This document shows, in pieces, positions 5,135-46,936 of a stretch of DNA of 64,000 bases (the first letter of the stretch is position 1; the number at the start of each line of letters is the position of its first letter). The translations under genes and the position numbers were made by a program. The notes under the pieces were generated by a model, which had not been told where the DNA came from, ran no database searches, and saw only the letters and a program-made list of their open reading frames with translations. Origin of the DNA: Actinoalloteichus caeruleus DSM 43889 (GTDB taxonomy: Bacteria > Actinomycetota > Actinomycetes > Mycobacteriales > Pseudonocardiaceae); contig NZ_AUBJ02000001.1 of assembly GCF_000429185.2 (NCBI RefSeq), forward strand, positions 2,046,001 to 2,110,000, read 5' to 3'.

Positions 5135-5170
5135 ACGGCACCACGTGGCCGACCGGAGGCCGGCACCAGG

Positions 5171-28768: not shown

Positions 28769-31396
28769 ATGCCAGCGGATCTGTCATTCACGTTCGCGAA
28801 CGACGATTTCTACGAGCCGCTTGCCGAGGCCCCGCCCGGCACCCGCTACACGCCCACCCGGATGCCCCCCGGCTGGGACCGTGCCGACCAGGACGTGTGG
28901 ACCCACTGGAGTCCGCCGCAGGCGCCGCCCCCGCCCGACCACGGTTGGAAGGTGCACGTCTCCAGCACCCCGGGCAACGCCCCGGCCGTCCTGGACGTCG
29001 TCGCTGCCGCCTGCGTGGACCTGGGTATCCCCTTCAAACACCTGGCCGGCCGCACCTACTTCCTGCTCCTGCACGGCAAGCACGCCTCCCGGCCGCAGAG
29101 CGGCAAGTTCTGCGCCCTCTACCCGGCCGACCCCCGCCAGGCCCACGAGGTCCTGCGTCGCCTGGAACACGACCTCGCCGGGGTGCCCGGCCCCTACGTG
29201 CTCACCGACCGCAGGTTCGGCTCCTCCCGGTGCGTCTCCTACCGCTACGGCGCCTTCCGCTCCCGTTACCGGCTGGAGGCCGACGGCACCCGCACCCCGG
29301 TGATGGCCGCCGCCGACGGGGACGAGATCCCCGACGACCGCCGCCCCGAGTTCCACCTCCCCGCCGGCGTCGCGGACCCCTTCGTCGAGGCCGAACCCGA
29401 CCTGTCCGACGGTCCGGTCGCCTTCCACGGCTACACCTTCGACGCCGTGCTCCAGCACAGCAACGCCGGCGGCGCCTACCGGGCCACCGACGCCACCGGC
29501 CGGCAGGTCTTCCTCAAGGAGGCCCGGTCCCACGTCGCCCACTCCGGCCGCGACGTCGACGCCCACGCCCGGCTCACCGCCGAGTACCTGGTGCTGCGGG
29601 CCCTGCACGCCAGGGCACCCGGACTGGCACCGGAACCCGTGGACCGGTTCGACCACTGGGAGCACGCCTACCTGGCGACCGAACTGGTCCCCGGCCGGCC
29701 CCTGAGCAGGTGGCTGATGGCGAACAACCCCGCCATCCGCGTCGACCAGCCCGCCGAGGCCTTCACCGACTACTACCGCAGGTGCGGGTTGATCCTGGAC
29801 CAGTTGCGCGACCAGCTCGACCGCCTCCACGAACTCGGCTACGTGTTCGTCGACGTCAGCCCGCGCAACGTGCTGGTCGACGACGAGGACCGCGTCCGGC
29901 TGGTCGACTTCGAGTCGACGCAGCGCCGGGACGCCACCATCCAGCCCCTGGCCACCCCCGGATTCGTCCCGCCGGAAGCCCTGAGCCCCGACGGCCGGGC
30001 CACGCTCGACCCGGTGCGCTACGACGACTACGGGTTGGCCGCGATCGCGCGGATGATGCTGGTCCCGACCATCCAGGTCGCCGAACGCAGCCCCTCGGCC
30101 GTGGACCACGTGACGGCCGCGCTGGAGGAACGCGCCCCGCTGCCGGCGACCCTCTGGGCGCGGGCGGACCGGTTCCGGGGCGTGCCCGCTCCGGGGCCGG
30201 CGCTGCCCTCCCCCGAGGCGGTGGCCGCCGAGCCCCACGAGTGGCTGAGCTGGCTACGGGACCACACCGCCAGCGCACTGCTCGCCCTCGCCGAACCCGA
30301 CCACCCGCGCCGGGTCTTCCCGACCATCCCCGACGGGCACCGGAGCAACACCCGGTGCGTGGCCTACGGCAGCGCCGGCGTCCTGCACGCCCTGCGGATG
30401 GCCGGACACCCGCCGGCGCCGGCGCTGGTCACCCGACTTCGCGACGAGTCGCTGGCCGGGTGGCGCGACATCCCCCCTGGCCTGTTGTTCGGCAGCGCCG
30501 GCATCGCCTGGGTGCTCGCCCAGGAGGGCGAGTGGGATGCCGCCGAACGCCTCCTCCGCCACGCCGGCCGGCACCCGCTGGTGACCCGCTCGGCCACCCT
30601 GGGCGGCGGATCCGCCGGCCTGGCACTGGCCGAACTGTCCCTGTACTGCCGCACGGGCGAGGAGTCGGCCCTGGACCGCGCCCGAGCCCTGCTGGAGACG
30701 CTGCCCACCGGCGAGGGCCTGACGCCCCTGCTGGGCGGCGACGACCGCTCCGGACTGGCCCAGGGCCGGCCCGGCGTGGCGTTGGCCCTGTACTACCTGG
30801 GTCGGCTGACCGGGGACGACGCGCCCCTGGAACGCGGGCTCGACCTGCTCCGCGCCGAACTCGTCCACGCCCAGCCGTGGGAGACCGGGGCGCTCGGGTT
30901 CCGGGTCTCGGCCAGGGACCGGCGCACCATGCCCTACCTGTACGCGGGCAGCGCCGGCTACGTCCACGTGCTCGCCCGGTACCTCGCCTGGCGGCCGGAC
31001 CCGCACCTGGCGGACGTGCTCGACCGGTGCGTGCGGGGCCTGCGCGTGCGGTTCACCATCGGCGGCGGGCTGTTCACCGGCCAGGCGGGGATGGGCTTCG
31101 TGCTCGGTGAGACGGCACGACTGCTGGGGGCCCCGGCGTCCACCGAGGACGCCGTTGCCTCCGGGCGGGCCCTGTTCCACCACGCCGTCCCCCACGCCAC
31201 GGGCGTGCGGTGGCCCGGCCTGCACGGCAACCGGTTGAGCGCCGAGCTGTGGAGCGGCGCGGCCGGTGTCCTGCTCGCCCTGCACCAGCTGGTCGACCCG
31301 GCGCCCGACCGCCTGTTCACCCTCGACCTGCCGGTGGCCGAACGGACCGGCCAGCCCGCCACGACCCGAACCGGGACGGCGCCGGCCCCGGTCTGA
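28769..31396 (+). CDS. lanKC: Class III lanthionine/labionin synthetase LanKC
   Basis: This 875-residue three-domain enzyme follows a GGGAGGAGG site. An N-terminal lyase region (to about residue 220) is followed by a Ser/Thr-kinase-like domain with the ATP Lys in VFLKEARSH (about residue 250), the catalytic loop VFVDVSPRNVLV (about 365) and the metal DFE (about 381). From about residue 525 comes a LanC-like domain whose helical repeats GSAGI, GRPGVALALYYLGR and GAAGVLLALH lack the Cys/Cys/His zinc ligands. That loss is normal for class III enzymes and separates them from class IV. It phosphorylates Ser/Thr in the precursor, eliminates phosphate and cyclises onto Cys. Three precursors follow directly. 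Confidence 0.93.
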   Translation: MPADLSFTFANDDFYEPLAEAPPGTRYTPTRMPPGWDRADQDVWTHWSPPQAPPPPDHGWKVHVSSTPGNAPAVLDVVAAACVDLGIPFKHLAGRTYFLLLHGKHASRPQSGKFCALYPADPRQAHEVLRRLEHDLAGVPGPYVLTDRRFGSSRCVSYRYGAFRSRYRLEADGTRTPVMAAADGDEIPDDRRPEFHLPAGVADPFVEAEPDLSDGPVAFHGYTFDAVLQHSNAGGAYRATDATGRQVFLKEARSHVAHSGRDVDAHARLTAEYLVLRALHARAPGLAPEPVDRFDHWEHAYLATELVPGRPLSRWLMANNPAIRVDQPAEAFTDYYRRCGLILDQLRDQLDRLHELGYVFVDVSPRNVLVDDEDRVRLVDFESTQRRDATIQPLATPGFVPPEALSPDGRATLDPVRYDDYGLAAIARMMLVPTIQVAERSPSAVDHVTAALEERAPLPATLWARADRFRGVPAPGPALPSPEAVAAEPHEWLSWLRDHTASALLALAEPDHPRRVFPTIPDGHRSNTRCVAYGSAGVLHALRMAGHPPAPALVTRLRDESLAGWRDIPPGLLFGSAGIAWVLAQEGEWDAAERLLRHAGRHPLVTRSATLGGGSAGLALAELSLYCRTGEESALDRARALLETLPTGEGLTPLLGGDDRSGLAQGRPGVALALYYLGRLTGDDAPLERGLDLLRAELVHAQPWETGALGFRVSARDRRTMPYLYAGSAGYVHVLARYLAWRPDPHLADVLDRCVRGLRVRFTIGGGLFTGQAGMGFVLGETARLLGAPASTEDAVASGRALFHHAVPHATGVRWPGLHGNRLSAELWSGAAGVLLALHQLVDPAPDRLFTLDLPVAERTGQPATTRTGTAPAPV

Positions 31397-31491
31397 CCGG
31401 CCCTGTCGGCCGTCGGACTCCGCGCCGCCCCGCCACCACCGACTTCCCTCCCACGACCGGTGGGAGGGGTGGAAGAAGAAGGAGAACCACC

Positions 31492-31608
31492 ATGAACGAC
31501 GCCCTGCGCCTCCAGGTCCAGCCCGACGCCGAGAACGACGTCGAGGACGACGCCCCCATCAGCACCACCAGCCTCGCCATCTGCGACATCGGGGAACAGA
31601 TCTCCTGA
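31492..31608 (+). CDS. Class III lanthipeptide precursor 1
   Basis: A 38-residue peptide behind AAGGAG. The leader starts MNDALRLQVQPDAENDVE (LRLQVQ is the counterpart of the helical ILELQ-type recognition motif) and runs to the acidic EDDAP. The core is ISTTSLAIC followed by DIGEQIS. S-T-T-S-L-A-I-C is exactly the S-x2-S-x3-C labionin pattern. It lies about 95 bp after lanKC. Cleavage after Pro22 would release a 16-residue product. Its sequence is identical to precursor 2 through residue 33. Confidence 0.9.
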   Translation: MNDALRLQVQPDAENDVEDDAPISTTSLAICDIGEQIS

Positions 31609-31754
31609 CCCCGAACCGGAACCGCGTCCGACCCGGTACCACGTCCGGACCCGCAACCGGCTCCAGACCGGGGAACGCGCAGCGCACCACCACTGATCCC
31701 GCGAACCCCAGCACCACGCCGCACCACACACACCACACACGAAGGAGAACCACC

Positions 31755-31868
31755 ATGAACGACGCCCTCCGTCTCCAGGTCCAGCCCGACGCCGAGAACG
31801 ACGTCGAGGACGACGCCCCCATCAGCACCACCAGCCTCGCCATCTGCGACATCAAGGAGATCTCCTGA
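31755..31868 (+). CDS. Class III lanthipeptide precursor 2
   Basis: A 37-residue near-duplicate of precursor 1, also behind AAGGAG. Leader and ring region (to CDI) are identical at protein level; only the tail differs (KEIS instead of GEQIS). The nucleotide differences are few and synonymous in the leader, indicating a recent tandem duplication. The ring motif is S-TT-S-LAI-C. Two hairpins follow the stop immediately. Confidence 0.9.
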   Translation: MNDALRLQVQPDAENDVEDDAPISTTSLAICDIKEIS

Positions 31869-31921
31869 CCGGAACCGGTTCCGGGCAGCGCCGCCACCGC
31901 ATGGCCCCGTGGTGGCGGCGC
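31869..31921 (+). terminator. Two hairpins after precursor 2 (partial terminator)
   Basis: A 16-bp perfect palindrome CCGGAACCGGTTCCGG (31869-31884) is followed by an 11-bp perfect stem GCGCCGCCACC (31888-31898 with 31911-31921, 12-nt loop). These could make precursor 1 and 2 transcripts end here or be stabilised, keeping precursors in excess over the downstream exporter and protease. Confidence 0.6.
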
Positions 31922-32156
31922 CCCGGCCCCGCCGGGGACGACCACGTCCGCCGGTCCCCCACGAACCAGCCGCCCGCGACGCGGGAGGCGAGATCCGCTG
32001 GCCGGTCGGGCACGGCGGCCCGGGCCGCCGTGCCTGGCGGCGGATCCGACCCGGGGTGCCGGGCCCAGCGCCGAGAGGCGGCCACGAACACCCGCCCCCG
32101 GCCCACCCCTCCCGTTCCCCTTCCCGTCCTTCCCCTTCCCGCGAGGAGTTCCCGCC

Positions 32157-32267
32157 ATGAGCGAAGCGCTCGCCCTGGCCGGCATGGAGTTCGGCGACGA
32201 CATCGACGACGACGCCCCGATCAGCGTGCTGTCGGTGTCCTACTGCGACGACGCCTTCTTCGGCTGA
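32157..32267 (+). CDS. Class III lanthipeptide precursor 3 (divergent)
   Basis: A 36-residue peptide behind GCGAGGAG. The leader begins MSEALALAGMEFGDD and ends IDDDAP, like the other two. The core is ISVLSVSYC followed by DDAFFG. S-V-L-S-V-S-Y-C keeps S-x2-S-x3-C, with an extra Ser in the ring and an aromatic tail. It is too short for routine gene calling but is supported by position, ribosome site and the shared DDAP-IS junction. Confidence 0.88.
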   Translation: MSEALALAGMEFGDDIDDDAPISVLSVSYCDDAFFG

Positions 32268-32298
32268 TCCCCGGCCGGACCCGACCCCAGGAGCCGCC

Positions 32299-32592
32299 AT
32301 GACCACGTCCCGTCCGGGCGTCCCGTCGCGGCCACGCCGCGACCACCTCCCGCAGCGGCGTGCCGCCGACATTCGCGGCCGCGACCACCACCGGGTCCCC
32401 GCCGGGGCCGGCCCCCGCGATGTGGCAGCCGGGCGAGCGGTCCGCCCCAGCCCGCCGCGTCACCGCCGGTGGCGGCCCTCCCCGTGCCCCACGGCCTCCC
32501 GGTTCGGCGACGCGCCCCCCACGACCGGATGCCGCTCCACCCGGCGCAGCGGCCCGCGCTGTCCCCGCACCGCGCGGGGGTGCCGGCGATGA
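32299..32592 (+). CDS. Small Arg/Pro-rich ORF with Cys-rich end, coupled to the MFS gene
   Basis: This 97-residue frame has an AGGAG site 5 bp before its ATG, more than 90% G/C at third codon positions, and a stop overlapping the MFS start (ATGA). The last 38 residues hold four Cys among Ser/Thr (PSPCPTASRF, TTGCRST, GPRCP, RGCRR). No family is recognised. It could be a further modified peptide, an accessory protein or a non-coding accident; the high Arg content is atypical of lanthipeptide leaders. Confidence 0.35.
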   Translation: MTTSRPGVPSRPRRDHLPQRRAADIRGRDHHRVPAGAGPRDVAAGRAVRPSPPRHRRWRPSPCPTASRFGDAPPTTGCRSTRRSGPRCPRTARGCRR

Positions 32593-33980
32593 CGGCCCGC
32601 ACCGTCGCCGACCGCGACTTCCGGTTGTTCCTGGTGGGTCAACTCGCCTCGGTGTTCGGCGGCACCCTGACCACGACCGCGATCTCGGTGATCGCGGTGA
32701 CCGGCCTCGGCGCCGGCCCTCGGGACGTCTCCCTGGTGGTGGCCGCCGGCATGCTGCCGGCGCTGCTGTTCGGACCGGTCTGCGGTGTCCTGCTCGACCG
32801 GGTCCGGCGCCCCAGGAGGGCGTTGATCGTCGCCGACCTGGGCGCGGCGGCGATGGTGGGGGCCTGCGCGGTCGCCGGTCTGACCGGGACGCTGAACCTC
32901 GGCTGGCTGGTGGCGCTCAACGTGGTGCTCGGCGTGGTCCACCTGACGGTGAACGGGCTCTACTTCTCCCATCTGCACTCGCTCGGGGTGTCGGACGTCG
33001 GTCGGGCCCGGGGCCGCCTCCAGTCCTCCGAGATGCTGGCCAGCTCCGTGGCGGGTTCCCTCGCCGGCCCGGTGGCCGCCGGGCTCGGGGCGGCGGTGCT
33101 GTTCGTCGGGGACGCCCTCGCCTACCTGTTCAGCGCCTACTGCCTGGTCCGGTTGCGTTCCCCCGACCACCGACCACCGTCCGGCCAGGCCAGGAAGAAG
33201 TTGACGGAGGAACTGGCGGACGGGCTGCGGGCGCTGCGGGGCAACCGGCTGCTGCTCGGCTACGCGGGGTTCCTCGTGCTCAGCGGGGTCGCCGCCAGCG
33301 GCATCGCCACCCAACGGGCGGTGTTCCTGCTGGACACGGTCGCGCTGCCGGTCGCCCTGTACACGCTGCCCACCGTGCTCGCCACCCTCCTGGGCGCCGG
33401 TGGCGCACTGCTCGCCCCCCGGCTGCTCGCCCGGGGGCACACCCCGCGCCGGCTCCTGCTGGTGGGACTGTCCGCCGCGGCGGTCGCCGGCGCGGTGCTG
33501 CCGCTGGCCGGTGGCCCGCTGGGGTGGGTCGTGACGGTGTCGGCGTTGAGCATCGCGCTCCCCCTGTTCTTCGGGGGGCTCGCGAACATCGCGCTGGTGA
33601 CGGTGATCGCCGACGACGTGGGGGACTCCTACTTCGCCAGGATCACCACCCTGCTCGGCTCGGTGGGGACGCTGGCGAACACGGCTGGCGCGCTGCTGGG
33701 AGGGGTGTTGGGGGAGGCGCTGGGCACCCGGGGCGGGATCTGGACGTGCGTCGGGGTGAACCTGGTGGCCGTCGCGGTGCTGTTGGCGGTGGCCGGCCGG
33801 CGCCCCGCCCGCTCCGCCACCGACCCGGTCGCGGCGGACGCCGACCACGCGCGGGCGACCCCGGGACCCTCCCGGGAGGACACCACCGCCCCGCCCGGCG
33901 TCGGGCCCGACGTCGAGGCGCCCCGCTCGGACGCGGCGCAGCCACCGCCACGGACCCTCACGGGAGGGAGGACACGATGA
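32589..33980 (+). CDS. MFS transporter of the class III lanthipeptide locus
   Basis: A 463-residue protein with 12 hydrophobic segments, beginning near TVADRDFRLFLVGQLASVFGG and with the loop GVLLDRVRRPRRALI, typical of EntS/DHA3-type MFS exporters. The C-terminal 60 residues are a soluble Pro/Ala/Asp-rich tail. ATG 32589 is chosen as the first start before the first helix. It ends in an ATGA overlap with the prolyl oligopeptidase gene. The likely role is export of the mature lanthipeptides. Class III loci more often carry ABC exporters, so this is an odd choice. Confidence 0.85.
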   Translation: MTARTVADRDFRLFLVGQLASVFGGTLTTTAISVIAVTGLGAGPRDVSLVVAAGMLPALLFGPVCGVLLDRVRRPRRALIVADLGAAAMVGACAVAGLTGTLNLGWLVALNVVLGVVHLTVNGLYFSHLHSLGVSDVGRARGRLQSSEMLASSVAGSLAGPVAAGLGAAVLFVGDALAYLFSAYCLVRLRSPDHRPPSGQARKKLTEELADGLRALRGNRLLLGYAGFLVLSGVAASGIATQRAVFLLDTVALPVALYTLPTVLATLLGAGGALLAPRLLARGHTPRRLLLVGLSAAAVAGAVLPLAGGPLGWVVTVSALSIALPLFFGGLANIALVTVIADDVGDSYFARITTLLGSVGTLANTAGALLGGVLGEALGTRGGIWTCVGVNLVAVAVLLAVAGRRPARSATDPVAADADHARATPGPSREDTTAPPGVGPDVEAPRSDAAQPPPRTLTGGRTR

Positions 33981-36010
33981 GCCCGGTCTACCCCGAGTGC
34001 CCCCGGACCGAGCGGATCGAGCTGGTGCACGGCCTGCGGGTCGACGATCCCTACCGGTGGTTGGAGGACCCGCTGTGCCCCGCGGCCCGCGACTGGGTCG
34101 CCGCCCAACAGGCGCTCGCCGAGGTCCACCTCAACGGCCTGCCCGGCCAGTCCGGTATCCGGCGGCTGCTGCGCGGCCTGGTCACCGGGCCGACGGCGTC
34201 CCCGGTGAAACCGGCCGGGGCCCGCCGGTTCCGGGTGGGGCGGTCCTCCGCGTTGCGGCGGTGGACCCTCCAGGTCGCCGACGAACCGGACGCGCCGTGG
34301 CGGGCGGTGGTGGACACCGCCCAGTTGGGCGGGGACGGGGTGACGGTGCGGCGTTGGCAGCCCTCCCCCGCCGGCCGCTACCTGGCCGTGCAGACCACGG
34401 TGGACGGCGCCGAGGACATCACCCCGCTGAACGTGGTCGACGTGGCGGCGCGGCGGGTGGTGGAGACCTCGCCGTTGACCCGCTACTCCTCGGTGTGCTG
34501 GCTGGCCGACGAACGGTCCTACTACTACGCCCGCCGACACCTGGACCGCCCGGGCAGCGGGGTCTACCTGCACCGGGTCGGGCACCCGTGGATCACCGAC
34601 CAGCTGGTGACCGGCGACGACGAGCCCGTCACCCGCTACCACCTGGCCCTGTGGCACGACCGGTGGCTGGTGGTGTGCCGCCGGCACGGCACCAGCCGGG
34701 ACACCACCCTGCTGGTCGCCGACCGGCACGCCGACGGCGAGGTCCGGGGGCTGGAGCTCACCGGCACCTCGGTGGGCGGGGTCCTGGTCGACCACGGAGG
34801 ACGGCTGTTCGCGGTGACCACCGAGGGCGCGCGTTTCGGCCGGCTCGTCGCGGCCGACCCCGACGCGGACGGCGCCTGGCGGTCCTGGCGCACCGTGCTG
34901 CCCGAGCAGCCACCGTCCGTGCTGACCTCGGTGAGCCTGGCCGGTGTCGAGGGCGCCGAACGCCTGGTGGCGTCGCGCACCCTCGACGGCTACAGCTCGC
35001 TGACCGTGCACGATGCCACCGACGGCCGGCTGTTGACCGACGTGCGGTTGCCCGGACCGGGCACCGTGTCGGCGGTCAACCCCACCGACCACCCGTTCGT
35101 CCTCGCCGTCAGCTACACCGACTGGGTGACACCGTTGTCGGTGTGGCGGGTCGACGTCCGCACCGGGGACATGACGCCGACCGAGGCGGTGACCCGCCGC
35201 GACGAGGTGGAGGTGCTGCGCACCAGCTACCCCTCCGACGACGGCACCGAGGTGCCGATGACGATCCTGGCGCTGCGCCAGCGCGGCGGCCGTCGGCCAC
35301 GGCCGACCGTGCTCACCTGCTACGGGGGCTTCGGGATCACCTTCCGCCCCGGGTTCCAACCCGACGCGCTCACCTGGGTGCTGGCCGGCGGGGTGATGGC
35401 CATCGCCGGGGTGCGTGGCGGCGGGGAACGCGGCCGCCAGTGGCACCTGGACGGCGCCGGACCGCACAAACCCAACGCGGTGCGCGACCTGCACGCGGCC
35501 GGCGACCACCTGGTGCGCCGCCGGTGGACGCGGCGGCCGCAGCTGGCGCTGCTGGGCGGCAGCAACGGCGGACTGGTGGTCACCGCGGCCACCGTGCAAC
35601 GGCCCAAGGCCTACGCGGCGGTGTCCAGCGCCGGCGCCCCCCTGGACATGGTCCGCTACGAACGGTGGGGGCTGGGCCGCGCGTGGCGCGCGGAGTACGG
35701 GGACGTCAGGGACCTCGCCGCGTTGGCGACCCTGCTCAGCTACTCGCCGTACCACAACGTGCGTCCCCAGCGCGGCAGGTTGCCGGCGATGCTGTTCACC
35801 ACCGGGGAGAACGACACCCGGGTGGACCCGGCGCACTCGCGGAAGATGGTGGCCGCGCTGCAACACCGCACGAGCGGCGGGCCCGTGCTGCTGCGGGTCA
35901 CCCCCGGCACCGGGCACGTCGGCGGGGGGCGCGAGTCGGAGGCCCTGGCCACGGCGATGCTGGCGTTCCTGGCCTGGCACACCGGGCTGAGGTTCGACGA
36001 CGACGGCTGA
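33977..36010 (+). CDS. Prolyl oligopeptidase (S9A), probable lanthipeptide leader protease
   Basis: A 677-residue S9A peptidase following GGGAGGGAGG, with a start in the MFS stop (ATGA). The N-terminal hallmark is VDDPYRWLEDP. A beta-propeller region spans about residues 60-420. The catalytic domain has Ser in GGSNGG (about 528), Asp in ENDTRVDP (about 614) and His in GTGHVGG (about 647). There is no signal peptide, so it is cytoplasmic. In the flavipeptin class III system a POP-type enzyme (FlaP) removes the leader C-terminal to Pro. All three precursors here have Pro immediately before the core, so the same role is a strong inference. Confidence 0.9.
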   Translation: MSPVYPECPRTERIELVHGLRVDDPYRWLEDPLCPAARDWVAAQQALAEVHLNGLPGQSGIRRLLRGLVTGPTASPVKPAGARRFRVGRSSALRRWTLQVADEPDAPWRAVVDTAQLGGDGVTVRRWQPSPAGRYLAVQTTVDGAEDITPLNVVDVAARRVVETSPLTRYSSVCWLADERSYYYARRHLDRPGSGVYLHRVGHPWITDQLVTGDDEPVTRYHLALWHDRWLVVCRRHGTSRDTTLLVADRHADGEVRGLELTGTSVGGVLVDHGGRLFAVTTEGARFGRLVAADPDADGAWRSWRTVLPEQPPSVLTSVSLAGVEGAERLVASRTLDGYSSLTVHDATDGRLLTDVRLPGPGTVSAVNPTDHPFVLAVSYTDWVTPLSVWRVDVRTGDMTPTEAVTRRDEVEVLRTSYPSDDGTEVPMTILALRQRGGRRPRPTVLTCYGGFGITFRPGFQPDALTWVLAGGVMAIAGVRGGGERGRQWHLDGAGPHKPNAVRDLHAAGDHLVRRRWTRRPQLALLGGSNGGLVVTAATVQRPKAYAAVSSAGAPLDMVRYERWGLGRAWRAEYGDVRDLAALATLLSYSPYHNVRPQRGRLPAMLFTTGENDTRVDPAHSRKMVAALQHRTSGGPVLLRVTPGTGHVGGGRESEALATAMLAFLAWHTGLRFDDDG

Positions 36011-36676
36011 CCGGGCCGGCACGCGTCCGCGACGGCGCGCGCCAACCGGACCGGGCACTCCCGGGCCGGCGAGGACGGGCGAGACGGGGGCGAGGACCGT
36101 GGGCGGGACCGGGTGGGAGCACCGGCGGCGCGGCGGGGGCTCGGGCCGGGGATTCCCCGAGCGGCCGTGTCGGCCCGACACCGGGCCCGTCCGGGCCCGC
36201 TGGGCCGGCGGATCGGCGGTCCCGAGTCCCCGGGCGGCGGGCGGGCCGACGTGCGTCGCCGGCGGCGGCCGCCGAGGTCCCCTCGCGGCCCCACCGCGCG
36301 GCGGTCGCCCCGACCGGGGCGGTCGTCCGACCATGACCCCGGGACGACCGCGGCCCACGCCGCGCCGGAGGCCGCCTGGCCCGGCCGGGCACCACCACCC
36401 CACGGCTCCGGAATCCCCCGGCGGTGAAGGGCGGGCCGGGGCGACGTCGAACGCCGCGACCGCCGGAGCATCCCCGGCCGACGGGTCATCCCCGGCCGGC
36501 GGGGCCCGACCGGGCACCGGGCCGGCCGGGACCGCCACCGAGGGGGCCGGGCGGCGTGGGGCTGCTCCCCGCCCCGACCGTCGCCGCGTTGGGCCGGGCA
36601 CCGCCCGCCGGTCCCCGGCCCGGCCCGCTCCCACCCGTTGACCCGCCGCCCGCGGCGCGGTGGCCCGCCGGACGCC
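36011..36676. other. 666-bp gap between convergent genes, no gene recognised
   Basis: Very GC-rich sequence open in several frames on both strands, giving only Arg/Pro/Gly-rich products with no ribosome site or motif. It lies between the protease gene and the converging LAL regulator gene. Confidence 0.4.
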
Positions 36677-39583
36677 TCAGCGGTGCTCGGCGGCCAGCTC
36701 CACCAGTCCCGCCCGGTCGGCCCGGCCCGTCTTGGTGATCAGGCTGGCCACGTGCTTCTCCACGGTGCGCGGCGAGATGTGCAGGCGGGTCGCGATGGCC
36801 TTGTTGCCCAGTCGGTGCACGAGCAGTTCCAGCACCTCGAACTCGCGGGAGGTGACACCGAGTTCCCGCAGCCCCACCGGGACCCGGTCGGTGCCGGCCC
36901 TGCGTTGCCGCACCGGCGCTCCCACCTGCCGCAGCAGCGCCCGGCAGGCGCTCGCCGGGGCGGCCACGCCCCGCTGGTGGAAGTACTCCTCGGCCTGCCG
37001 CAACCAGCCCGCCGGCTCACCCCACCCACCCCCGTGGGCGGCCTCGGCGACCAGCCGCAACCCCAGCGCCCGGCCGAGGGGGTAGGGCTCCGCCGCGTCC
37101 AGGGCGCGGCGGGCGGCGTCCTCGGCCCGGCCCGCGTCCCCGTCCCGCCCGTGCAGCACCGCCGTCGCCAACAGCACGAACTGCCGGTTCCACCGCATCC
37201 CGCCCGCCGGGGCGGCGGTCACCTCGGCGTGCTCGGCCCAGCCGGCGTCCCCGGCCACCACCCGCAGCAGCAGGTGCAGGCCGTGCCGCCCGGCGAGGAA
37301 GAAGGTGGTGGGGTTCTCCGCCTGCGCCGCGAGGACGGCGGCGAACTCGGCGCCGGCCGCCGCGTGGTCCTCCTCCAGCAGCGCGCACACCGCCCTGGCC
37401 AGTCCCAGGGCCAGCGGCTGCTCCTGCGAACCGGGGCCGCCGTGCCGGGCGAACTCCGCCAGTTCGCGGTCCATGCCCGGCCGGTCGGCCCGGTGCGCGG
37501 ACAGGACCGCCCTGGCCATGAGCACGTAACGGACGACCGCCGTCAGGTGCAGCCGGGTGGCGTCGGCGAGCACCGCGTCCAACCGGTGCGCCGCGACCTC
37601 GTGGTCGCCCCGCAGGACGGTGTCCAGGGCGAGGATCGCGTCCACGTTCACCGCCAGCGGCAACGCGCCCACCCGCAGCGCCTCCACCCGGGCGTGGGCC
37701 AGGACGCTGGTGTCCCCCTCGGCGAGCCAGGCGTTCCCGGCCAGGCCCATCAACGCGTAGATCCGCCAGATCGGCAGCCGGTGCTCCTCGGCCACCCGGC
37801 GGGCGCGGTCGAAGTGCCGCCACGCCTCGTCCAGGTCCCGTTCCCTGGCGACGGTGCCGATGGTGCGCCACGCCTGGCAGGCGATGACCGGCAGCGGAAC
37901 CCGGTCGGTGGCCGCCACCGCCCGCCGGGCCAGCTCCTCGGCCTCCCGGGTCCGGTGCCGTCCGGGCGCGTTCAACGCCAGCGACGCGGCCACCGCGTCA
38001 ACGGGGGCGGTGTGCTCGGGGGCCGCGTGCTCACCCAGGAGCCGGCGGGCCTCCCGCACCTGGGCGATCCCGTCCTCCCAGCGGCCGGCGATCTGGGTGA
38101 CCCAGGCGAGGCGGACGTGCAGGGCGGCGCGGCGGGTCCGGTCGGCGGCGGTGCCGTGGTCGTCGAGGGTCCCGGCGAGCTCGAAGGCCCGTTCCAGGTT
38201 CCCCGCCTCGGCCAGCGCGTAGAGCAGGGCCTCCACCACCTCCGCCCGGCTGGTGGGGTCCCCGTGGTCGGACAGCAGCCGTTCGGCCTGCTCCAGCAGG
38301 GTGATCGCGGACTGCGCGGCCCCGTCGGCCAGGGCACGCCGGCCGGCCTCCAGGTAGTGCCCCGCCGCCACCGAGGTCTCCCCGGCGGCACGGCGCAGCA
38401 CCGCGGTGAGCTGGCACCACTCGCCCGGCAGGTCCGGGTGCAGGGCGGTGACCACGTCGGCCGCCCTGGCGCTGAGGGCGGCCCGGTCGGTCGGGGTCAG
38501 CCGGGCCAGCAACGCCTCCGCCGTCAACGGGTGTTGGAAGGCGTACCAGTCGGGGCCCCGGTCGTCGGAGGCGACGAGTTGCGCGGCCACCGCCGACTGG
38601 AGGTGGCCCAGCAGCGTGTGGTCATCCATCCCGGTGACGCGTTGCACGATGGACAGCGGGAACCGGCGGCCGAGGACGGCGGCGGCGGAGAGCAGCGCCT
38701 CCCCCTTGGGGCCGAGCCGGTCGGCGCGTTGGGTGATGCTGCGCACCAGGGTGTCCGGCACCTCGGTGCGCAGGGCCCGCACCAGCTGCCAGCCCCCGGC
38801 GCCCGGCACCAGCCGGCCCGCGCTGACCATGCCCCGCAGCAGTTCCTCGACGACCAGCGGATTGCCGGCGCTGTCCTCCCACAGCCGGTCGGTGACCTCG
38901 ATTGGCACCCGCTCCGGGTCGCTGTCCAGGCAGGACGCCGCGAACACCCGTACCTGCGCCGCGCCGAGCCGTTCCAGGTGCAACGCCCGGCCGGTGTCCC
39001 GGCGGGTGGCCGAGTCCGCCAGGTCCAGCGCCGCCCCGGGTTCGGAGCGGACGGTGGCCAGGAGCACGCCGGGCTGGAGGTCGAGGTTGTCGCACAGGTA
39101 CTCCACGACCGCGAGGGTCTCCAGGTCGGCGTCGTGCAGGTCGTCGAGGACCAGCAGGCAACCCCGCTCACGTCCCACGACACCCATGAGCCGCAGCAGC
39201 GCCTCGGCCAACACCACGAACGAGGCGTCCCGTTGGGTGTCGCCGTGATCCCAGTCGGGCACCAGCCGCCCCAGGACGGGCCGGTAGGGGCCGAGATCGG
39301 CTTCGATGGCGGACGCCCCGCCCCGCACGAGGGAGAGCAACGCCTCGGCCAACGGACGGAACGGAACCGAGGGCCCGAACGATCCCGCCCGGCCGCGCAG
39401 CACGACCATGCCGGCCTCGTAGGCGGTACCGACCGCCTCGGCGGCGATCCGGGACTTGCCGATCCCGGGTTCGCCGACGACGAAGAGCGCGGAGCCGCGG
39501 CCCTTCCTGGCGTTGGCCAGGGCGGCACCGAGCTCCGCCAGCTCCGTGTCCCGTCCGATGAGGAGTGGCGCACGGATCCGCAT
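36677..39583 (-). CDS. LAL-type LuxR family regulator (large ATP-binding)
   Basis: This 968-residue regulator has an N-terminal AAA-type ATPase (Walker A FVVGEPGIGKSRIA near residue 40, Walker B GCLLVLDDLHDAD near 140). A long helical TPR-like middle follows, and a C-terminal LuxR HTH in the last 60 residues (TSREFEVLELLVHRLGNKAIA, then SPRTVEKHV). LAL proteins are large activators of secondary-metabolite clusters, switched by nucleotide or ligand binding. It sits between the class III operon and the LanM gene, so it may control either or both. No strong ribosome site precedes ATG 39583. Confidence 0.93.
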   Translation of the reverse strand: MRIRAPLLIGRDTELAELGAALANARKGRGSALFVVGEPGIGKSRIAAEAVGTAYEAGMVVLRGRAGSFGPSVPFRPLAEALLSLVRGGASAIEADLGPYRPVLGRLVPDWDHGDTQRDASFVVLAEALLRLMGVVGRERGCLLVLDDLHDADLETLAVVEYLCDNLDLQPGVLLATVRSEPGAALDLADSATRRDTGRALHLERLGAAQVRVFAASCLDSDPERVPIEVTDRLWEDSAGNPLVVEELLRGMVSAGRLVPGAGGWQLVRALRTEVPDTLVRSITQRADRLGPKGEALLSAAAVLGRRFPLSIVQRVTGMDDHTLLGHLQSAVAAQLVASDDRGPDWYAFQHPLTAEALLARLTPTDRAALSARAADVVTALHPDLPGEWCQLTAVLRRAAGETSVAAGHYLEAGRRALADGAAQSAITLLEQAERLLSDHGDPTSRAEVVEALLYALAEAGNLERAFELAGTLDDHGTAADRTRRAALHVRLAWVTQIAGRWEDGIAQVREARRLLGEHAAPEHTAPVDAVAASLALNAPGRHRTREAEELARRAVAATDRVPLPVIACQAWRTIGTVARERDLDEAWRHFDRARRVAEEHRLPIWRIYALMGLAGNAWLAEGDTSVLAHARVEALRVGALPLAVNVDAILALDTVLRGDHEVAAHRLDAVLADATRLHLTAVVRYVLMARAVLSAHRADRPGMDRELAEFARHGGPGSQEQPLALGLARAVCALLEEDHAAAGAEFAAVLAAQAENPTTFFLAGRHGLHLLLRVVAGDAGWAEHAEVTAAPAGGMRWNRQFVLLATAVLHGRDGDAGRAEDAARRALDAAEPYPLGRALGLRLVAEAAHGGGWGEPAGWLRQAEEYFHQRGVAAPASACRALLRQVGAPVRQRRAGTDRVPVGLRELGVTSREFEVLELLVHRLGNKAIATRLHISPRTVEKHVASLITKTGRADRAGLVELAAEHR

Positions 39584-39666
39584 ACCGGGACTCTAACGAC
39601 CCGGTACACGCAGCGACCGCTCGTTCACGGATTCGCAACGTCGTCGACCCGGCGACGCGGTAGGGC

Positions 39667-39899
39667 TCAGAGCTGCGTTCCCGGGCGCTGACGGTGGTCA
39701 GCGGCGGCAACCCGGAGGTGACGATCGCGCTGAGGGTGAGACCGGCGAGGACGCTGACCCGCGCCCCGACCGACAGGCGGGCAGGCGTGCGGGCCTCGCC
39801 GATCGGGTGGTCGTCCACGTTGGCGTGGGTCGGCGCCACGGGCGGCGCGTCGTGGTCGGTGCCGGCGGGGGCGGTGGTGGGGCGGTGGTCGGCGGTCAT
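39667..39899 (-). CDS. Small peptide ORF after lanM, candidate substrate (Cys-less)
   Basis: An ATG at 39899 with GAGGAG at good spacing follows the LanM stop by 146 bp. The product begins MTADHRPTTAPAGTD and has a hydrophobic Ser/Thr-containing stretch VSVLAGLTLSAIVTSGLPPL. As written, the frame runs on into the LAL gene region. One missing base near the CCCGGG at 39680 would end it at a TGA at 39667 (...SAPGTQL, about 77 residues), the same type of defect seen elsewhere here. It contains no Cys, which is unusual for a LanM substrate. It may instead be a small membrane peptide. Confidence 0.35.
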
Positions 39900-40045
39900 G
39901 GCGTTCTCCTCGTGGTGTCGGCGGGTGCCTCGTCGGACGGGAGGTTCCCGGGAATCGGGGGTGGTGGGTGTGGGTCGCGGGTGGTGCGGTGTCCGACTCC
40001 GGGGTGCTCCCTCCCGGGAACCGGACGTCGGGGTCGGGGCGCCGG

Positions 40046-43000
40046 TCAGGGACCGTCCCGCTGGGGCCGCCCGCGCGCCCGCCGCTCCACCACCTCCGGG
40101 GCGGGCCCCGGCGGGACACCGGTGGTGCCGGTACCCCACCTGGCGGTGGTCGGCGGCCGGGGTCCCGGGTGCAGGGCGAGCACGGAGGGCACCACGTCGG
40201 GCAGGGCGAGCCGCAGCAGCCCGTACCCGATGCCGGCCAACCCGGTCAGCAACCCCGGGGTGGTCAGGCCGGACGGGGTGCCGCACCGAGGACCGGTCCG
40301 TTCCAGGGCGCCCAACACCCGGGCCTGTCCGCGTTCGGCGGCGCCCAGCAGGTCGGGGCGACGGCGGGTGAGGGCGGTCAACGCCTCCACCACGCCCAGT
40401 TCTCCGTGGCAGGGGGTCAGGTCGGCGCGGGCCTCCCGCACGGTCAGCGCCTCCAGCGCCGCGTCCGGCAGCGGGTCGGTCCCACCCGATGCCCCGGGCG
40501 GGCCGCTGCCCGCGCCCGCCCACGCCAGGGCCGGACCGGCGATGCCGTGGCACCACGCGGAACCCCCGCGTGCCAGCAGCTCCCGGGTGGCCGCGTCCAG
40601 CAGCGCGGCACCGGAGGTCGTCAGCGACGGCCGCGCGGGCAGCACGGCGCCGGCCCGCAGCAGGGCCCACCCGACACCGGCCGTGCCGTGCGGGAACGAC
40701 GGATCGCCGCCGCCCCCCGACGGTCCACCGCCCAGGCCCCCGTCCCCGGCGACGTGGCGGTGCAGCCGGTCCGCCAGCGGCGCGAGCACCTCGGCGGCCT
40801 CCGGGGATCCCGTCTCCTCGTGCACCGAGGCCAGCACCGCCACCGCCCCGGCCCAGCCGGTCGCCAGACCCACCCCGTGCTCGGGGGCCTCCCCCTCGGG
40901 CCGGGCCGAGGCGGTGCGGCCGAGCAGCGGCAGCGACCGGTCCAGCCAGGCGCGGGGCTCCGGGTCGTCGAGCAGGGTGGACAGCCGCGCCAGGGCGTAG
41001 CTGATGCCGGCGAGGCCCTGGAACGCCCCCACGCCCACGGTCGTCGCCAGGGCCGGTTCGGCGTGGAACGCCGCCAGCAGCGCCGGCAGCGGGCGCACCG
41101 CGCGACGGGCCAGCCCGGTGTACCGGGGTATCCCGGTGAGCGCGCCGAGCTGGGCGAGGAACACCGCGACCCCGCAGTACCCGTCACCCAGGCCGGCGCC
41201 CATCGGCAACACCGCCCAGTAGCGGTCGTCCACCGGTTGCAGCCCGAGCCAGTTGGCCCGCCGCTCGTCGTGCTCGGCGGTGGCGACCAGTGAGTCGCCG
41301 ATCGCGCATGCCGCGGTGAGCAGGCGGTCCACGTCGGGGACCACCAGGGCGGTGGCGCCGGCGGGGACGGCCCGCGCGTGGTGGGACACCGCCGGGGTCC
41401 GGGTGTCCAACGCGGCCCGGATCAACCACTCCTGGTCGCGCCGGTCCACCTCGTCGAGCGCGCGCACCTTGCCGAGGACGGCGTCCAGGCCGGCGACCGG
41501 CAGCCGGTCGGGCACCACCCGGCCGGAGCCGGTGTGGACGTCCCGGCTGTCGGGGGTGGTGGTGAACAGCGGAACATCGCCCCGCCACAGCTCCGCCACC
41601 TCGCAGGGCACCAGGTCCCGCAGTTCCGGGCTCTGGGACAGCACAGCGAAGGCCCGGTCCCGGTCGGCTCCGGAGCGCACCGCGTCCGGGTGGGTCGATT
41701 CGGCCAGCAACGTCGCGTAGACGCTGGTGTCGCGGAACACCACCCGCTGCTCGGTCCCGGCGCAGTCCCGCAGCGGCCCGCCGTCGGCCAGCAGCTCGGC
41801 CCGGTGCGTGAGAACGGCCTCGTAGGTCGCGCGGAACCCGCCGACCAGGCCGTCGACGTGGGCGGCCGGTTCGACGTCCGGCGCCCCGGGCAGGCCCGGC
41901 CGGTTGCTGGCGGCCTCCACGGTGCCCGGGACGCGCTCCAACCGCATCGTGTCCCGCCCGGTGTCGACCCACCGCACCCCGTCGTCGGGGTGCCGCGCGC
42001 CCGGGTCGCCCCCCAGCCCCGACAGGTCCACCGCGCCCTCCGGCCCCAGCAGCATCCTCGGGAGCAGCGCGGTGCGGTGCACCGAGGCGAGCAGCGCCGT
42101 CAACGCCGGATCACCCCCGGTGGTGGTGCCGGGTGGGAACGCCGGGTGGAACAGGGTCTCCACGTCCACGACCACCGGGTGCTCGCCGTGCGCCACCAGG
42201 TTCTCGTAGTGGACGTCGGTGCCGTCCACCAGGTACAGCAGGGCCAGCAGGGCGCCCTGCCGGCGGTAGAAGCGGTCCACCCCGGTCAGCTCGGCGCACG
42301 GCAGGTGCTCGACGAACTCGGCCCACCCGTAGCCCCGGCCGGCCAGCTGCCGCACCGCCCGCAATCCCAGGTCCGGGACCCGGGCGTCCACCCAGTCGAC
42401 CAGGCGGGTGAAGCGGAGGGACAGGTCGACGGGGCGCGGCTTGTGGACGATCCGCCGGCCGTCGGCGAAGTGGAGCACGGCCACGGTCCGCCCGCCCCGA
42501 TGCCGGTCACCCATCCCCGGCGTGACCCGCACCAGCGGACCGGGATCGGTGCCCCCCAACAGGGTGGCGACGATCGCCGCCCGGTCCCGCAGGTAGCGGC
42601 CCACCAGTTCGGCCGCCGACTGGGCGTCCTGGGTGATGGTCTGGGCCAGCAGCCGGGCCAGCACCGGGTACCGCCGGACGAACCCGGTCAGGCCGGCCCT
42701 GGTCGCCGTGGCGGCGAGGAACCCGGCGAACCGGGACTCGGAGGTCGCTCCCGGCAAGGCGCCCCGGACGCGGTCGTGGTGCAGGTCCAGGACGAGGGCG
42801 CGGGCCGAGGTGCGGACCAGCCGGGCGCGGGTGGCCGCCAGCAGCCCGGCGCGAACGGTGTCGGCATCGACCAGCGCGGGGTGGGACGGCGCGGGCAGTG
42901 CGGCGTTCAGGTGGTCGGCGGCCACCGCCAGGAACGGCTCCAGGGCGGGCGCCAGGCACAGCACGTCGCCCGGCGTGGTCGCGGCGCCGTCCCCCCGCGA

Positions 43001-43294
43001 CGCCGCGACCTCCCCCCGAGCCCGGACCGCCCTGTCGGGAGTCCGGGACGCCTCCGACCCGCCGGCACCCGGTGAGGCCCCGCCGACCGGAGGGGCCTCG
43101 TCGGACGACGCCGCCAGCACGCGTTCCACGACCTCCGCCCACTCGGGCCGCTCCCCGGGGACCTGGGCGACCGGTTCGGGGCCGCCGCCCTCCGGCGGCC
43201 GGGTCGCGGCACGCTCGGCGGCGGAGAGCGCACCGGCCCACCACCGCGAATCGAGCGGCTCCTCGGCCGGGCTGAGTGTCGGTGAGGCGGTCAC
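40046..43294 (-). CDS. lanM: Class II lanthipeptide synthetase LanM
   Basis: About 1,082 residues from GTG 43294 (an ATG at 43330 is possible but sits inside a motif that looks like an operator). The N-terminal dehydratase domain shows QTITQDAQSAAELVGRYLRD, GRRIVHKPRPVDLSLRF and ALLYLVDGTDVHYENLVAHG with VDVETLFHP. The C-terminal LanC-like cyclase has the zinc ligands in WCHGIAG (about residue 914) and CHGELG (about 961-962), so cyclisation onto Cys should be possible. LanM dehydrates Ser/Thr and forms thioether rings. No clear Cys-bearing precursor is found within several kb apart from the class III ones. Confidence 0.93.
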   Translation of the reverse strand: MTASPTLSPAEEPLDSRWWAGALSAAERAATRPPEGGGPEPVAQVPGERPEWAEVVERVLAASSDEAPPVGGASPGAGGSEASRTPDRAVRARGEVAASRGDGAATTPGDVLCLAPALEPFLAVAADHLNAALPAPSHPALVDADTVRAGLLAATRARLVRTSARALVLDLHHDRVRGALPGATSESRFAGFLAATATRAGLTGFVRRYPVLARLLAQTITQDAQSAAELVGRYLRDRAAIVATLLGGTDPGPLVRVTPGMGDRHRGGRTVAVLHFADGRRIVHKPRPVDLSLRFTRLVDWVDARVPDLGLRAVRQLAGRGYGWAEFVEHLPCAELTGVDRFYRRQGALLALLYLVDGTDVHYENLVAHGEHPVVVDVETLFHPAFPPGTTTGGDPALTALLASVHRTALLPRMLLGPEGAVDLSGLGGDPGARHPDDGVRWVDTGRDTMRLERVPGTVEAASNRPGLPGAPDVEPAAHVDGLVGGFRATYEAVLTHRAELLADGGPLRDCAGTEQRVVFRDTSVYATLLAESTHPDAVRSGADRDRAFAVLSQSPELRDLVPCEVAELWRGDVPLFTTTPDSRDVHTGSGRVVPDRLPVAGLDAVLGKVRALDEVDRRDQEWLIRAALDTRTPAVSHHARAVPAGATALVVPDVDRLLTAACAIGDSLVATAEHDERRANWLGLQPVDDRYWAVLPMGAGLGDGYCGVAVFLAQLGALTGIPRYTGLARRAVRPLPALLAAFHAEPALATTVGVGAFQGLAGISYALARLSTLLDDPEPRAWLDRSLPLLGRTASARPEGEAPEHGVGLATGWAGAVAVLASVHEETGSPEAAEVLAPLADRLHRHVAGDGGLGGGPSGGGGDPSFPHGTAGVGWALLRAGAVLPARPSLTTSGAALLDAATRELLARGGSAWCHGIAGPALAWAGAGSGPPGASGGTDPLPDAALEALTVREARADLTPCHGELGVVEALTALTRRRPDLLGAAERGQARVLGALERTGPRCGTPSGLTTPGLLTGLAGIGYGLLRLALPDVVPSVLALHPGPRPPTTARWGTGTTGVPPGPAPEVVERRARGRPQRDGP

Positions 43295-43321
43295 GGGATC
43301 ACCGTGCCACGCACCCACCAC

Positions 43322-43335
43322 CACCGGCATGGGTG
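43322..43335. promoter_or_regulatory. Palindrome-like motif before lanM
   Basis: On the lanM strand this reads CACCCATGCCGGTG, matching 12 of 14 bases of the perfect palindrome at 43586 near the regulator gene. It lies 28 bp upstream of the chosen lanM start. Confidence 0.4.
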
Positions 43336-43585
43336 AGAGCCCCCCATATTCCCGGCACACCCCCCGTTGTCCCGCCGGCAGGCGTGCCGGGACAGCGGGT
43401 TCGCGCATGGCACCCGGAGCGGCGGGCGGGGGACACGGCCACACCCCCATGCGACGAACCGGGCGTTCGGGAGTGACCCCACCGACCGGAGACCACACCG
43501 GACCACGCCTGCCGCACCGCCACCCAGCGGAGAGCCACCCGCTCCCCCACCCGACCGCCCCGGGCTCGGAAATCCGGGTAGCCGC

Positions 43586-43599
43586 CACCCATGTGGGTG
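43586..43599. promoter_or_regulatory. 14-bp palindrome upstream of the TrmB/LuxR-like regulator
   Basis: CACCCA-TG-TGGGTG is a perfect inverted repeat, about 50 bp upstream of the leader ORF of the regulator. With the copy at 43322 it brackets the lanM/regulator divergent region, the expected layout for autoregulation plus lanM control. Confidence 0.45.
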
Positions 43600-43650
43600 A
43601 GCACGGGCGGCCTCCACACTGAGCACGGCCCACGACAGGAGGGAGAGGTC

Positions 43651-43701
43651 GTGACCGTCACCGCGCACCACCCCGACACCGCCCCGGAGCGGAGCGACTG
43701 A
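43651..43701 (+). CDS. 16-codon leader ORF coupled to the regulator
   Basis: A GTG preceded by AGGAGGGA, the best ribosome site in this region, opens a frame for MTVTAHHPDTAPERSD. Its stop overlaps the regulator ATG (TGATG). The regulator itself has only a weak site, so its translation probably depends on this leader. It could also be the true start region of an alternative product, but the frames differ. Confidence 0.45.
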   Translation: MTVTAHHPDTAPERSD

Positions 43702-44681
43702 TGGCCCTGCGGGATCTCGGTTTCACCGCCGAACAGGAACGCGTCTACCGCGCGCTGCTGGCCGATCCGGACAGCGACCTGGCCGGGCTCGCCCGCACCG
43801 GCACGCCGGGGACCGTCCGCGCAGCCCTGGCCGGCCTCGTCGAACTCGGCGTCGCCCGCTTCCGCGCCGACCGCCCCTCCGGGGTGGAACTGCCGCGCCC
43901 CTCGGTCGCCCTCGGCGACCTCATCGAACGCACCGAGGACGAACTCCTGCGCCGACACCGCCGGGTCGGCGACACCAGGAGCGAGGTGCCGGCACTGGCC
44001 GAACAACACGCCGGCACCACCGCCGGGCCACTCACCGGCCAGGGCGTGGAACGACTCACCGACGTCGACCAGGTACGGGAACGCCTCGCCGAGCTGTCCT
44101 TCTTCACCAGGACCAGCGTCTACTCCGTGCACCCCTCGGCGCGCCCCAGCCCGGAGTCGGTGGCCGCCGCCCGCCCGCTGGACGTGCGCAGCCAGCGACG
44201 GGGCGTGGAGATGCGGGTCATCCACGAGGCCAGCGTCGTCACCGACCACCGCGTCCGCGACCACCTGCGGGAGGCCGCCGCCTCCGGGGCGCGGATCCGG
44301 CTGTCCGACCTGCCCGTCGAGCGGATGATCATCATGGACGAGGAGGTCGTGGTCGTCCCCTCCGATCCGAGCGACACCCGGCGGGGCGCGTTGGTGGTGC
44401 GGCAGGCCGGCCTGGTGCGCGGGTTCCTGCACCTGTTCCACCGCATCTGGGCGGAGGCCGCCGACCTCACGACCAGCGACGACCCGCCAGCCGACCTGAC
44501 CGAGGAGGACCGCCAGCTCCTGGCGCTGCTGGCCGAGGGCCGCACCGACGAGACCGCCGCCCGCGCGGTGGGCGTGTCCGTCCGGCACCTGCGGCGCCGC
44601 ATCGCCCGCCTGATGCACCGACTCCAGGCGGCGAGCCGTTTCGAGGCCGGGGTGGCCGCCGCCCGCCGGGGCTGGCTGTGA
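43701..44681 (+). CDS. TrmB-like/LuxR-type HTH regulator
   Basis: A 326-residue protein with an N-terminal winged helix of TrmB/sugar-sensing type (LGFTAEQERVYRALLADP with TPGTVRAALAGLVELGVARF, residues 3-56). The central part resembles a phospholipase-D-like effector fold (VEMRVIHEASVV, RIRLSDLPVERMIIMDEEVV). A C-terminal LuxR-type HTH follows (EEDRQLLALLAEGRTDETAARAVG and SVRHLRRRI). Such regulators occur beside actinomycete peptide and secondary-metabolite genes. It is divergent from lanM with shared palindromes between, and a small peptide gene follows. Confidence 0.83.
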   Translation: MALRDLGFTAEQERVYRALLADPDSDLAGLARTGTPGTVRAALAGLVELGVARFRADRPSGVELPRPSVALGDLIERTEDELLRRHRRVGDTRSEVPALAEQHAGTTAGPLTGQGVERLTDVDQVRERLAELSFFTRTSVYSVHPSARPSPESVAAARPLDVRSQRRGVEMRVIHEASVVTDHRVRDHLREAAASGARIRLSDLPVERMIIMDEEVVVVPSDPSDTRRGALVVRQAGLVRGFLHLFHRIWAEAADLTTSDDPPADLTEEDRQLLALLAEGRTDETAARAVGVSVRHLRRRIARLMHRLQAASRFEAGVAAARRGWL

Positions 44682-44877
44682 CCGTGGCCCGCCGCACGCC
44701 GCGCCGCCCGGGGATCGGCCCGGCCCGCCGCGCCGGTGCCGCTCGACGGGGCGGGGCACCGGTCACCGCGCCGCCGTCCCGGCGCTCACCCCGAGCCGGT
44801 GCCGCCGACCCCCAGCCGGTCCGGTGCGAACACCGACCACGACCACCACGAGAACGCACGACGAAGGGATGACCAGC

Positions 44878-45060
44878 ATGCCCGCGACCAGGACAACCCG
44901 GCCCAGGGCCGCCCGCGCGGGTGGGCCCGAAGGCGGCACCCGCCCGCACGGTGGGCGGCTGCTCCCGCCCGCCGACGGCGCCGCGCCGCCGGCTCCGGAC
45001 CGGACCCAGCCGGCGCATGACCACGGCCCGTTGCCCCTCGGCGTCTTCGGCTGGGACTGA
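44878..45060 (+). CDS. Small peptide downstream of the regulator
   Basis: A 60-residue product with start ATG 44878 and GAAGGGA about 10 bp upstream; an in-frame ATG at 44869 is too close to the site. The body is Arg/Pro/Gly-rich and the end is a distinct hydrophobic tail, HDHGPLPLGVFGWD. It has no Cys, no signal peptide and no known family. Its position behind a regulator with a sensor-like middle domain suggests a signalling or cargo peptide, but nothing proves it. Confidence 0.45.
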   Translation: MPATRTTRPRAARAGGPEGGTRPHGGRLLPPADGAAPPAPDRTQPAHDHGPLPLGVFGWD

Positions 45061-45154
45061 GGCACTTCGTGACGGTCTCGGTGTCGGGTGGGCGCCGACG
45101 GCCCCGGCACGCACGGCGCCCACTCCCGGGCCGCGCCCCGACCTCCCGCCGTTC

Positions 45155-45240
45155 CGGATCCGGAGTCCGGGCTCCGGGCTCCGGGCTTCGGGCTTCGGGC
45201 TTCGGCTTCGGGGCTCGGGGCTTCGGCTTCGGGGCTCGGG
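45155..45240. repeat. Short tandem repeat (GGGCTCC/GGGCTTC family)
   Basis: Seven- to eight-base units (GGGCTCC, GGGCTTC) change into two copies of a 21-bp unit beginning GGGCTTCGGCTTC. It lies 30 bp past the acyl-CoA ligase stop, between converging genes. Confidence 0.65.
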
Positions 45241-45269
45241 GGAGGCGGGGACGAGGTGGCGCGTCGCCG

Positions 45270-46784: not shown

Positions 46785-46936
46785 CGGCTCGGCTCCTTCG
46801 CCTCGGACCGTCTCCTCCCAGCACGCTGACACTTCCGAGTGAGGGTTGGCAACCTGAACGGGCGCCGTGCCCGAGGGTTCGGACCAGCCGGGGCCGCGCC
46901 GCCGGCGCGGGGGCGGAGGTTCCCGGGCGCGGTCGG

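Follow-up and report, generated by a model that had tools for sequence, protein, structure and literature searches.

A class III lanthipeptide operon of Actinoalloteichus caeruleus with a candidate leader protease of the prolyl oligopeptidase family

How are the cores of class III lanthipeptides freed from their leaders when the operon carries a peptidase gene of its own? The question is raised by a gene run of the GC-rich bacterium Actinoalloteichus caeruleus DSM 43889 within a 64,000-nucleotide stretch of contig NZ_AUBJ02000001.1 (positions 2,046,001 to 2,110,000; the window hereafter), where a class III lanthionine synthetase (LanKC) and three small precursor peptides are followed by a transporter of the major facilitator superfamily (MFS) and a prolyl oligopeptidase (POP). 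An earlier note on this DNA called leader removal the least understood step of class III biosynthesis; that description no longer fits, with FlaP, AplP-type M1, M16B and S8 enzymes all described as class III leader proteases (PMC10885120, PMC8960859). The reading favoured here, to which sequence comparison lends a probability of roughly two in three, is that the operon brings its own leader protease and that the POP would free whole cores by one cut at DDAP/IS, the slash marking the junction of leader and core.

The gene run is a class III lanthipeptide locus by the equivalog score of its LanKC (NCBIfam lanthi_synth_III, 708.6 bits against a cut-off of 575), in agreement with the class first assigned. 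Six consecutive genes occupy the + strand from 28769 to 36010 in the order LanKC, A1, A2, A3, MFS and POP (Table 1). The genes originally delimited within 31492-36010 stand, but the start of that region does not, since LanKC (28769-31396) belongs to the same gene run. The POP gene does end the operon as had been claimed; it encodes S9 domains, and its ATG overlaps the MFS stop by four bases.

The precursors are 36-38 residues long. A1 consists of the leader MNDALRLQVQPDAENDVEDDAP and the core ISTTSLAICDIGEQIS, A2 joins the leader of A1 to the core ISTTSLAICDIKEIS, and A3 has the leader MSEALALAGMEFGDDIDDDAP and the core ISVLSVSYCDDAFFG. All three open reading frames (ORFs) bear out the earlier description: an identical DDAP/IS followed by S-x2-S-x3-C, with cores of 16, 15 and 15 residues in A1, A2 and A3. 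Because A1 and A2 are near-identical copies, the three precursors provide two independent lines of evidence; A3 has little in common with the other two besides DDAPIS and S-x2-S-x3-C, and the LxLQ-type leader motif, LRLQ in A1 and A2, is LALA instead in A3. A related locus, L036 (genome G213, same family), has four precursors that all read DAP/IS, which argues that the junction is not due to chance. A proline does stand directly before each core, as had been pointed out; what had been passed over is a further proline at -12 in A1 and A2, whereas A3 has the junction proline (-1) only.

Judged by its sequence, the last gene of the run is an S9A prolyl oligopeptidase, with propeller and hydrolase domains (Peptidase_S9_N 6.8e-42, Peptidase_S9 8e-39), catalytic triad and pocket. 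In the alignment columns, the triad S529, D613 and H647 is intact, as is the proline pocket F452, N530, W570, Y574, R615 and V616; the roles of these nine residues are assigned after pig POP. No signal sequence is obvious by eye. Prolyl endopeptidases head the matches among solved structures (2bkl, 2.6e-86), and the best oligopeptidase B reaches 4.4e-30. POP-type peptide cyclases appear among the lower-scoring structure relatives (5o3x, 4.2e-50), and it is conceivable on that basis that the enzyme cyclizes its substrate, in the manner of the mushroom and plant cyclases of this type, rather than hydrolyzing a leader. We regard this as highly improbable, given that the best structure matches are bacterial prolyl endopeptidases and that the tails of A1-type cores differ widely, so that no C-terminal recognition sequence common to them is apparent.

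In a tree built without the POPs of loci L193 and L194, those of the window, L036 and L121 form one clade (support 100/100). A second clade (98/99) consists of ten flavipeptin-like POPs, from loci of the LEAP/GG type, and leaves out the window POP; a further clade (100/100) unites 16 of 19 POPs from elsewhere in genomes, which were assumed not to be adjacent to LanKC matches. A contig scan with the window POP returned five distant S9 loci of 26-35% identity.

If such an enzyme cuts at the junction, the residue before the cut (P1) should be the constrained one. The compared set comprises the window and seven class III loci whose POP has an intact pocket and is not of the flavipeptin type (L036, L121, L193, L194, L049, L051 and L142). 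The residue one before the first ring Ser/Thr is Pro in 18/20 and Ala in 2/20 precursors, the list being those found by ORF searches with a pattern that required Pro or Ala at P1 and that all 20 matched; two pairs among them are near or full copies, and one L193 precursor is read EEEAP/TS, its pattern-placed form EEEA/PTS giving 17 Pro and 3 Ala. The following residue, P1', takes nine kinds over the same precursors (I, W, L, F, C, V, T, D, N). With P1 confined to Pro or Ala while P1' varies, the constraint lies on P1, as a POP cut would predict. Comparison of peptides and protease with other class III clusters, which the earlier note had suggested, thus finds DAP/IS shared with L036 and a distinct POP lineage.

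L036 resembles the window in LanKC, DAP/IS precursors, MFS, POP, LuxR-type regulator, class II synthetase (LanM) and helix-turn-helix (HTH) regulator, all in the same order; it differs in having four precursors and in protein identities of 46-62% (LanKC 60%, MFS 62%, POP 62%). L121 and L193 are 54% identical to the window in LanKC and 52% in POP, and their junctions read EEAP/W twice, GP/L, EDAP/V, KAP/W, EEAP/T, EEAP/D, DGA/F and DAP/N. An MFS homologue is located between precursors and POP in L036, L121 and L193. More distant POP loci have LIP/C (L049), LVP/C (L051) and DAP/F (L142), the POP of L142 being 32% identical to that of the window and on a long branch in the tree.

The prolines inside the leaders suggest another route, flavipeptin-like and in two steps, in which the POP would cut within the leader (in A1 and A2 at Pro -12), the remainder then being trimmed by an aminopeptidase to ragged N-termini. 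It has a precedent in FlaP, which cuts after Pro(-12), leaves residues -11 to -1, and is efficient only with a modified core, other enzymes probably removing the rest (PMC10885120). In A1 and A2 the inner proline is exactly at -12, 13/20 precursors have some inner proline, and one M1 peptidase is encoded elsewhere in the window's genome. This route nevertheless seems rather unlikely: the inner proline is absent in 7/20 precursors and otherwise shifts between -8 and -30, against a junction proline in 18/20; A3 keeps its junction proline without any inner one; and the L036 precursors retain DAP/IS in 4/4, one of them having no inner proline and the others one at -9, -9 and -11. The junction proline is the steadier of the two in position, which speaks for it as the site of the decisive cut, and a single cut directly before the core, as first proposed, appears to be the likeliest reading of these sequences.

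The parallel with FlaP that had been drawn holds in part. Flavipeptin (FlaA/FlaP, Kribbella flavida) is likewise a class III system with a POP in the cluster and a cut after a leader proline, and A1 and A2 share its Pro at -12. The FlaP cut, however, leaves 11 leader residues attached to the core (PMC10885120), and the window differs further in its Pro at -1, its single S-x2-S-x3-C cores, its MFS gene and its several precursors. The window POP and LanKC both fall outside the clades of the ten flavipeptin-like loci (FlaP itself is not named in the tree), and the tree lends no support to the window POP being a FlaP orthologue.

Other systems share single elements with the window. Family III 3 of Streptococcus pneumoniae, with LanPB (a POP), also combines an Sx2Sx3C core with a POP gene, but belongs to another phylum and has a CAAX protease as well (PMC7268733). 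For clavusporin (MpcP) and biarylitide (ProTM32), a POP is the leader protease of a bacterial ribosomally synthesized and post-translationally modified peptide, as proposed here, albeit of other classes (PMC12951456). In the accessible literature, from which the original FlaP paper was missing, no POP is described that cleaves class III precursors right where the core begins. The parts are known individually; the combined arrangement is an uncommon variant.

Loci lacking a POP provide the contrast. In a LanKC tree rooted on six selected relatives, the window falls in a 16-locus clade (support 100/100). Its five POP loci have the Pro motif in four cases and Ala in one, and the motif occurs in 0/11 loci counted as POP-less, that is, with no POP in the fetched stretches (11 precursors listed; Fisher p 0.0027, on related rows). 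Ten of these eleven belong to one subclade, which leaves about two independent contrasts, not eleven. The contrast bears on the view that the POP has no part in leader removal, or degrades free leaders only, with an M1, M16 or other protease maturing the peptides and DDAP-IS serving as a recognition feature for LanKC. Most characterized class III clusters are indeed without a protease gene (PMC8960859), AplP cleaves a range of class III precursors (PMC10885120), and some POP-less loci elsewhere do have a junction proline (see below). Against this stand the 0/11 count, the overlap of the POP and MFS genes in the window, and the position of POP beside LanKC in L036, L121, L193 and L194; we consider the view quite unlikely.

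Across 125 class III loci, picked from hit lists rather than at random, Pro at -1/-2 is found in 7/18 POP loci versus 11/95 scored POP-less loci (p 0.009; 12 loci without a scorable precursor were excluded from the Fisher tests), a moderate link. Ten of the POP loci without a junction proline are flavipeptin-like, with LEAP or a similar motif and then a Gly-rich stretch. L069 and L112, taken at first for POP loci, encode S9 proteins without the pocket Trp, Tyr and Arg and were moved to the POP-less group; the count before the move was 8/18 vs 9/89 (p 0.0014). These LanKC-adjacent S9 proteins keep the Ser, and their precursors have Asn-Pro before the first Ser.

Several findings count against a single POP cut at the junction. 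Tested on independent tree pairs, the link between Pro and POP gives 2.7 same and 1.0 opposite of 5 (p 0.625), so that it cannot be taken as proven across lineages; the claim therefore rests on P1 conservation within POP loci instead of the wide correlation. Junction Pro at -1/-2 also occurs in the 11 POP-less loci just counted, and in L123 and L124, where no POP was found, the corresponding position reads Pro-Pro-Cys. Among Brevibacterium, POP genes are present in six class III loci and a leader Pro in only 1/6 precursors (PMC5719810). Within the compared set, the junction residue is Ala in 1/6 L193 precursors, and L194 has EEDAA/L in a leader without Pro, yet an intact POP. In vitro, cleavage by POP after Ala and after Cys has been reported as well, though far less efficient (PMC5306367), so Ala at the junction fits, though weakly. 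The Pro at -12 in A1 and A2 belongs here too, as does the statement that POP substrates are peptides under 30 residues (PMC9147577), shorter than the window precursors. Lastly, no close POP was found among the some 890 contigs of G023, a genome of the same genus, where the POP found is 42% identical; the LanKC contig of G023 stops after a copy of A2, and in an assembly of so many pieces the absence decides nothing.

With these points weighed, maturation at DDAP/IS by the operon's own POP would proceed as follows. LanKC, by analogy with its family, would act on each core by dehydrating both Ser of the S-x2-S-x3-C motif and joining the Cys into a labionin or lanthionine ring. The POP, to judge from its specificity and the comparison above, would cut after the leader-terminal Pro in one step, leaving Ile as the free N-terminus; Pro at -12 in A1 and A2 would probably allow a second, non-essential leader cut, A3 having only its junction proline. 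The MFS protein, from its position, may export the products of 15-16 residues. Computed [M+H]+ values with two dehydrations are 1614.804 for A1, 1557.819 for A2 and 1586.720 for A3. Joint action of A1 and A2 with the better conserved A3 may be envisaged.

Table 1. Features of the window in window coordinates, with the observations on which each assignment rests
Feature	Coordinates	Strand	Basis
LanKC, class III lanthionine synthetase, 875 amino acids	28769..31396	+	RamC_N, Pkinase, LANC_like; NCBIfam lanthi_synth_III
Precursor A1, leader LRLQ..DDAP, core ISTTSLAICDIGEQIS	31492..31608	+	ORF; similar precursors in L036
Precursor A2, leader identical to A1, core ISTTSLAICDIKEIS	31755..31868	+	identical peptide in L054, a contig from the same genus that stops shortly beyond it
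Strong hairpin between A2 and A3	31869..31935	+	-49.1 kcal/mol, z -4.45 against shuffles
Precursor A3, second precursor type, leader LALA..DDAP, core ISVLSVSYCDDAFFG	32157..32267	+	by-eye counterparts in L036, L121, L193
MFS transporter, probable peptide exporter	32589..33980	+	TIGR00900 1.8e-26, under model cut-off
POP (S9A), proposed leader protease, 677 amino acids	33977..36010	+	domains, structures, tree, pocket
LuxR-type regulator with AAA domain (LAL)	36677..39583	-	AAA_16 6e-25, GerE 1e-10; 60% identical, same place in L036
Possible Cys-free LanM substrate	39657..39899	-	by-eye likeness to 72-amino-acid ORF of L036, same place
LanM, class II lanthionine synthetase	40046..43633	-	TIGR03897 667.5 bits, cut-off 304
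HTH regulator	43701..44681	+	homologues beside several class III loci

The hairpin separating A2 from A3 is very stable; it is a possible RNA stability or read-through element, and perhaps sets precursor dose relative to MFS and POP. No terminator-like site was detected between 28500 and 36700.

Beyond the operon lies a class II block, with the LuxR-type regulator and LanM convergent to the operon and the HTH regulator divergent after LanM. The LanM cyclase ligands Cys and Cys-His are present by eye, and its true start is probably some 100 codons inward. Homologues of the HTH regulator occur in L036 (59%) and in L044-L048, L050, L081 and L194 (49-54%); as these are class III stretches, the LanM block is flanked on both sides by class III genes in two genera, those of the window and L036. 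A small Cys-free ORF between LanM and the LuxR-type regulator has a similar stretch in both. The interval 39657-39899 is the segment shown, the frame in the window being open beyond it with no early stop; a profile search of this segment gave no family match. The L036 counterpart (4815-5033) and its LanM (1954-4746) sit inside the class III locus, as in the window. LanM-LanKC loci with Cys-free LanM precursors have been described (PMC7268733, citing Zhang 2015), and the window shares LanM, LanKC and a Cys-free small ORF with them. No Cys-containing LanM precursor was recognised in window positions 36000-46900 or L036 positions 1-8100, where only short ORFs with a ribosome-site-like stretch were listed. 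Neither a LanM nor a close LuxR-type match is present in the available parts of L121 (about 2.3 kb past POP), L193 and L194.

Some further loci surfaced in the comparison. L044-L048 and L050 have LanKC relatives with an MFS gene and no POP found, and 2-4 similar precursors with very short cores such as STASIVC. L052 (10673-10804) belongs to its genome's second class III locus and encodes a two-ring, SapB-like precursor, with no POP found in the 19 kb fetched. Two plasmid-borne class V lanthipeptide loci (lxmK), L162 4078-10025 of Nonomuraea gerenzanensis and L163 2982-10145 of Streptomyces sp. ADI95-16, have POPs 38-43% identical to that of the window and short ORFs with Pro near the probable core start. 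L161 6166-11425, on a plasmid of Streptomyces sp. NBC_00503, has an overlapping MFS-POP pair beside an ATP-grasp gene; the 18 kb covered contain no annotated lanthipeptide synthetase, and this is perhaps another peptide system.

A broader and more tentative picture, which we regard as possible but doubtful, is that of a separate class III POP lineage co-evolved with its precursors through a P1 Pro (or Ala) at the exact boundary. It would allow traceless one-cut maturation of several diversified cores together with one conserved partner core, and in two genera the locus would have become a composite in which a class II synthetase works on a peptide without Cys, the product possibly being multi-component and MFS-exported. 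If a single cut at the junction is true, class III lanthipeptides would have in the POP a simple, dedicated protease whose one demand is Pro (or Ala) as the last residue of the leader and which accepts many different residues on the product side. It would then become practical to make class III peptides with defined N-termini in heterologous hosts, and the junction rule would aid core prediction in other POP-bearing loci.

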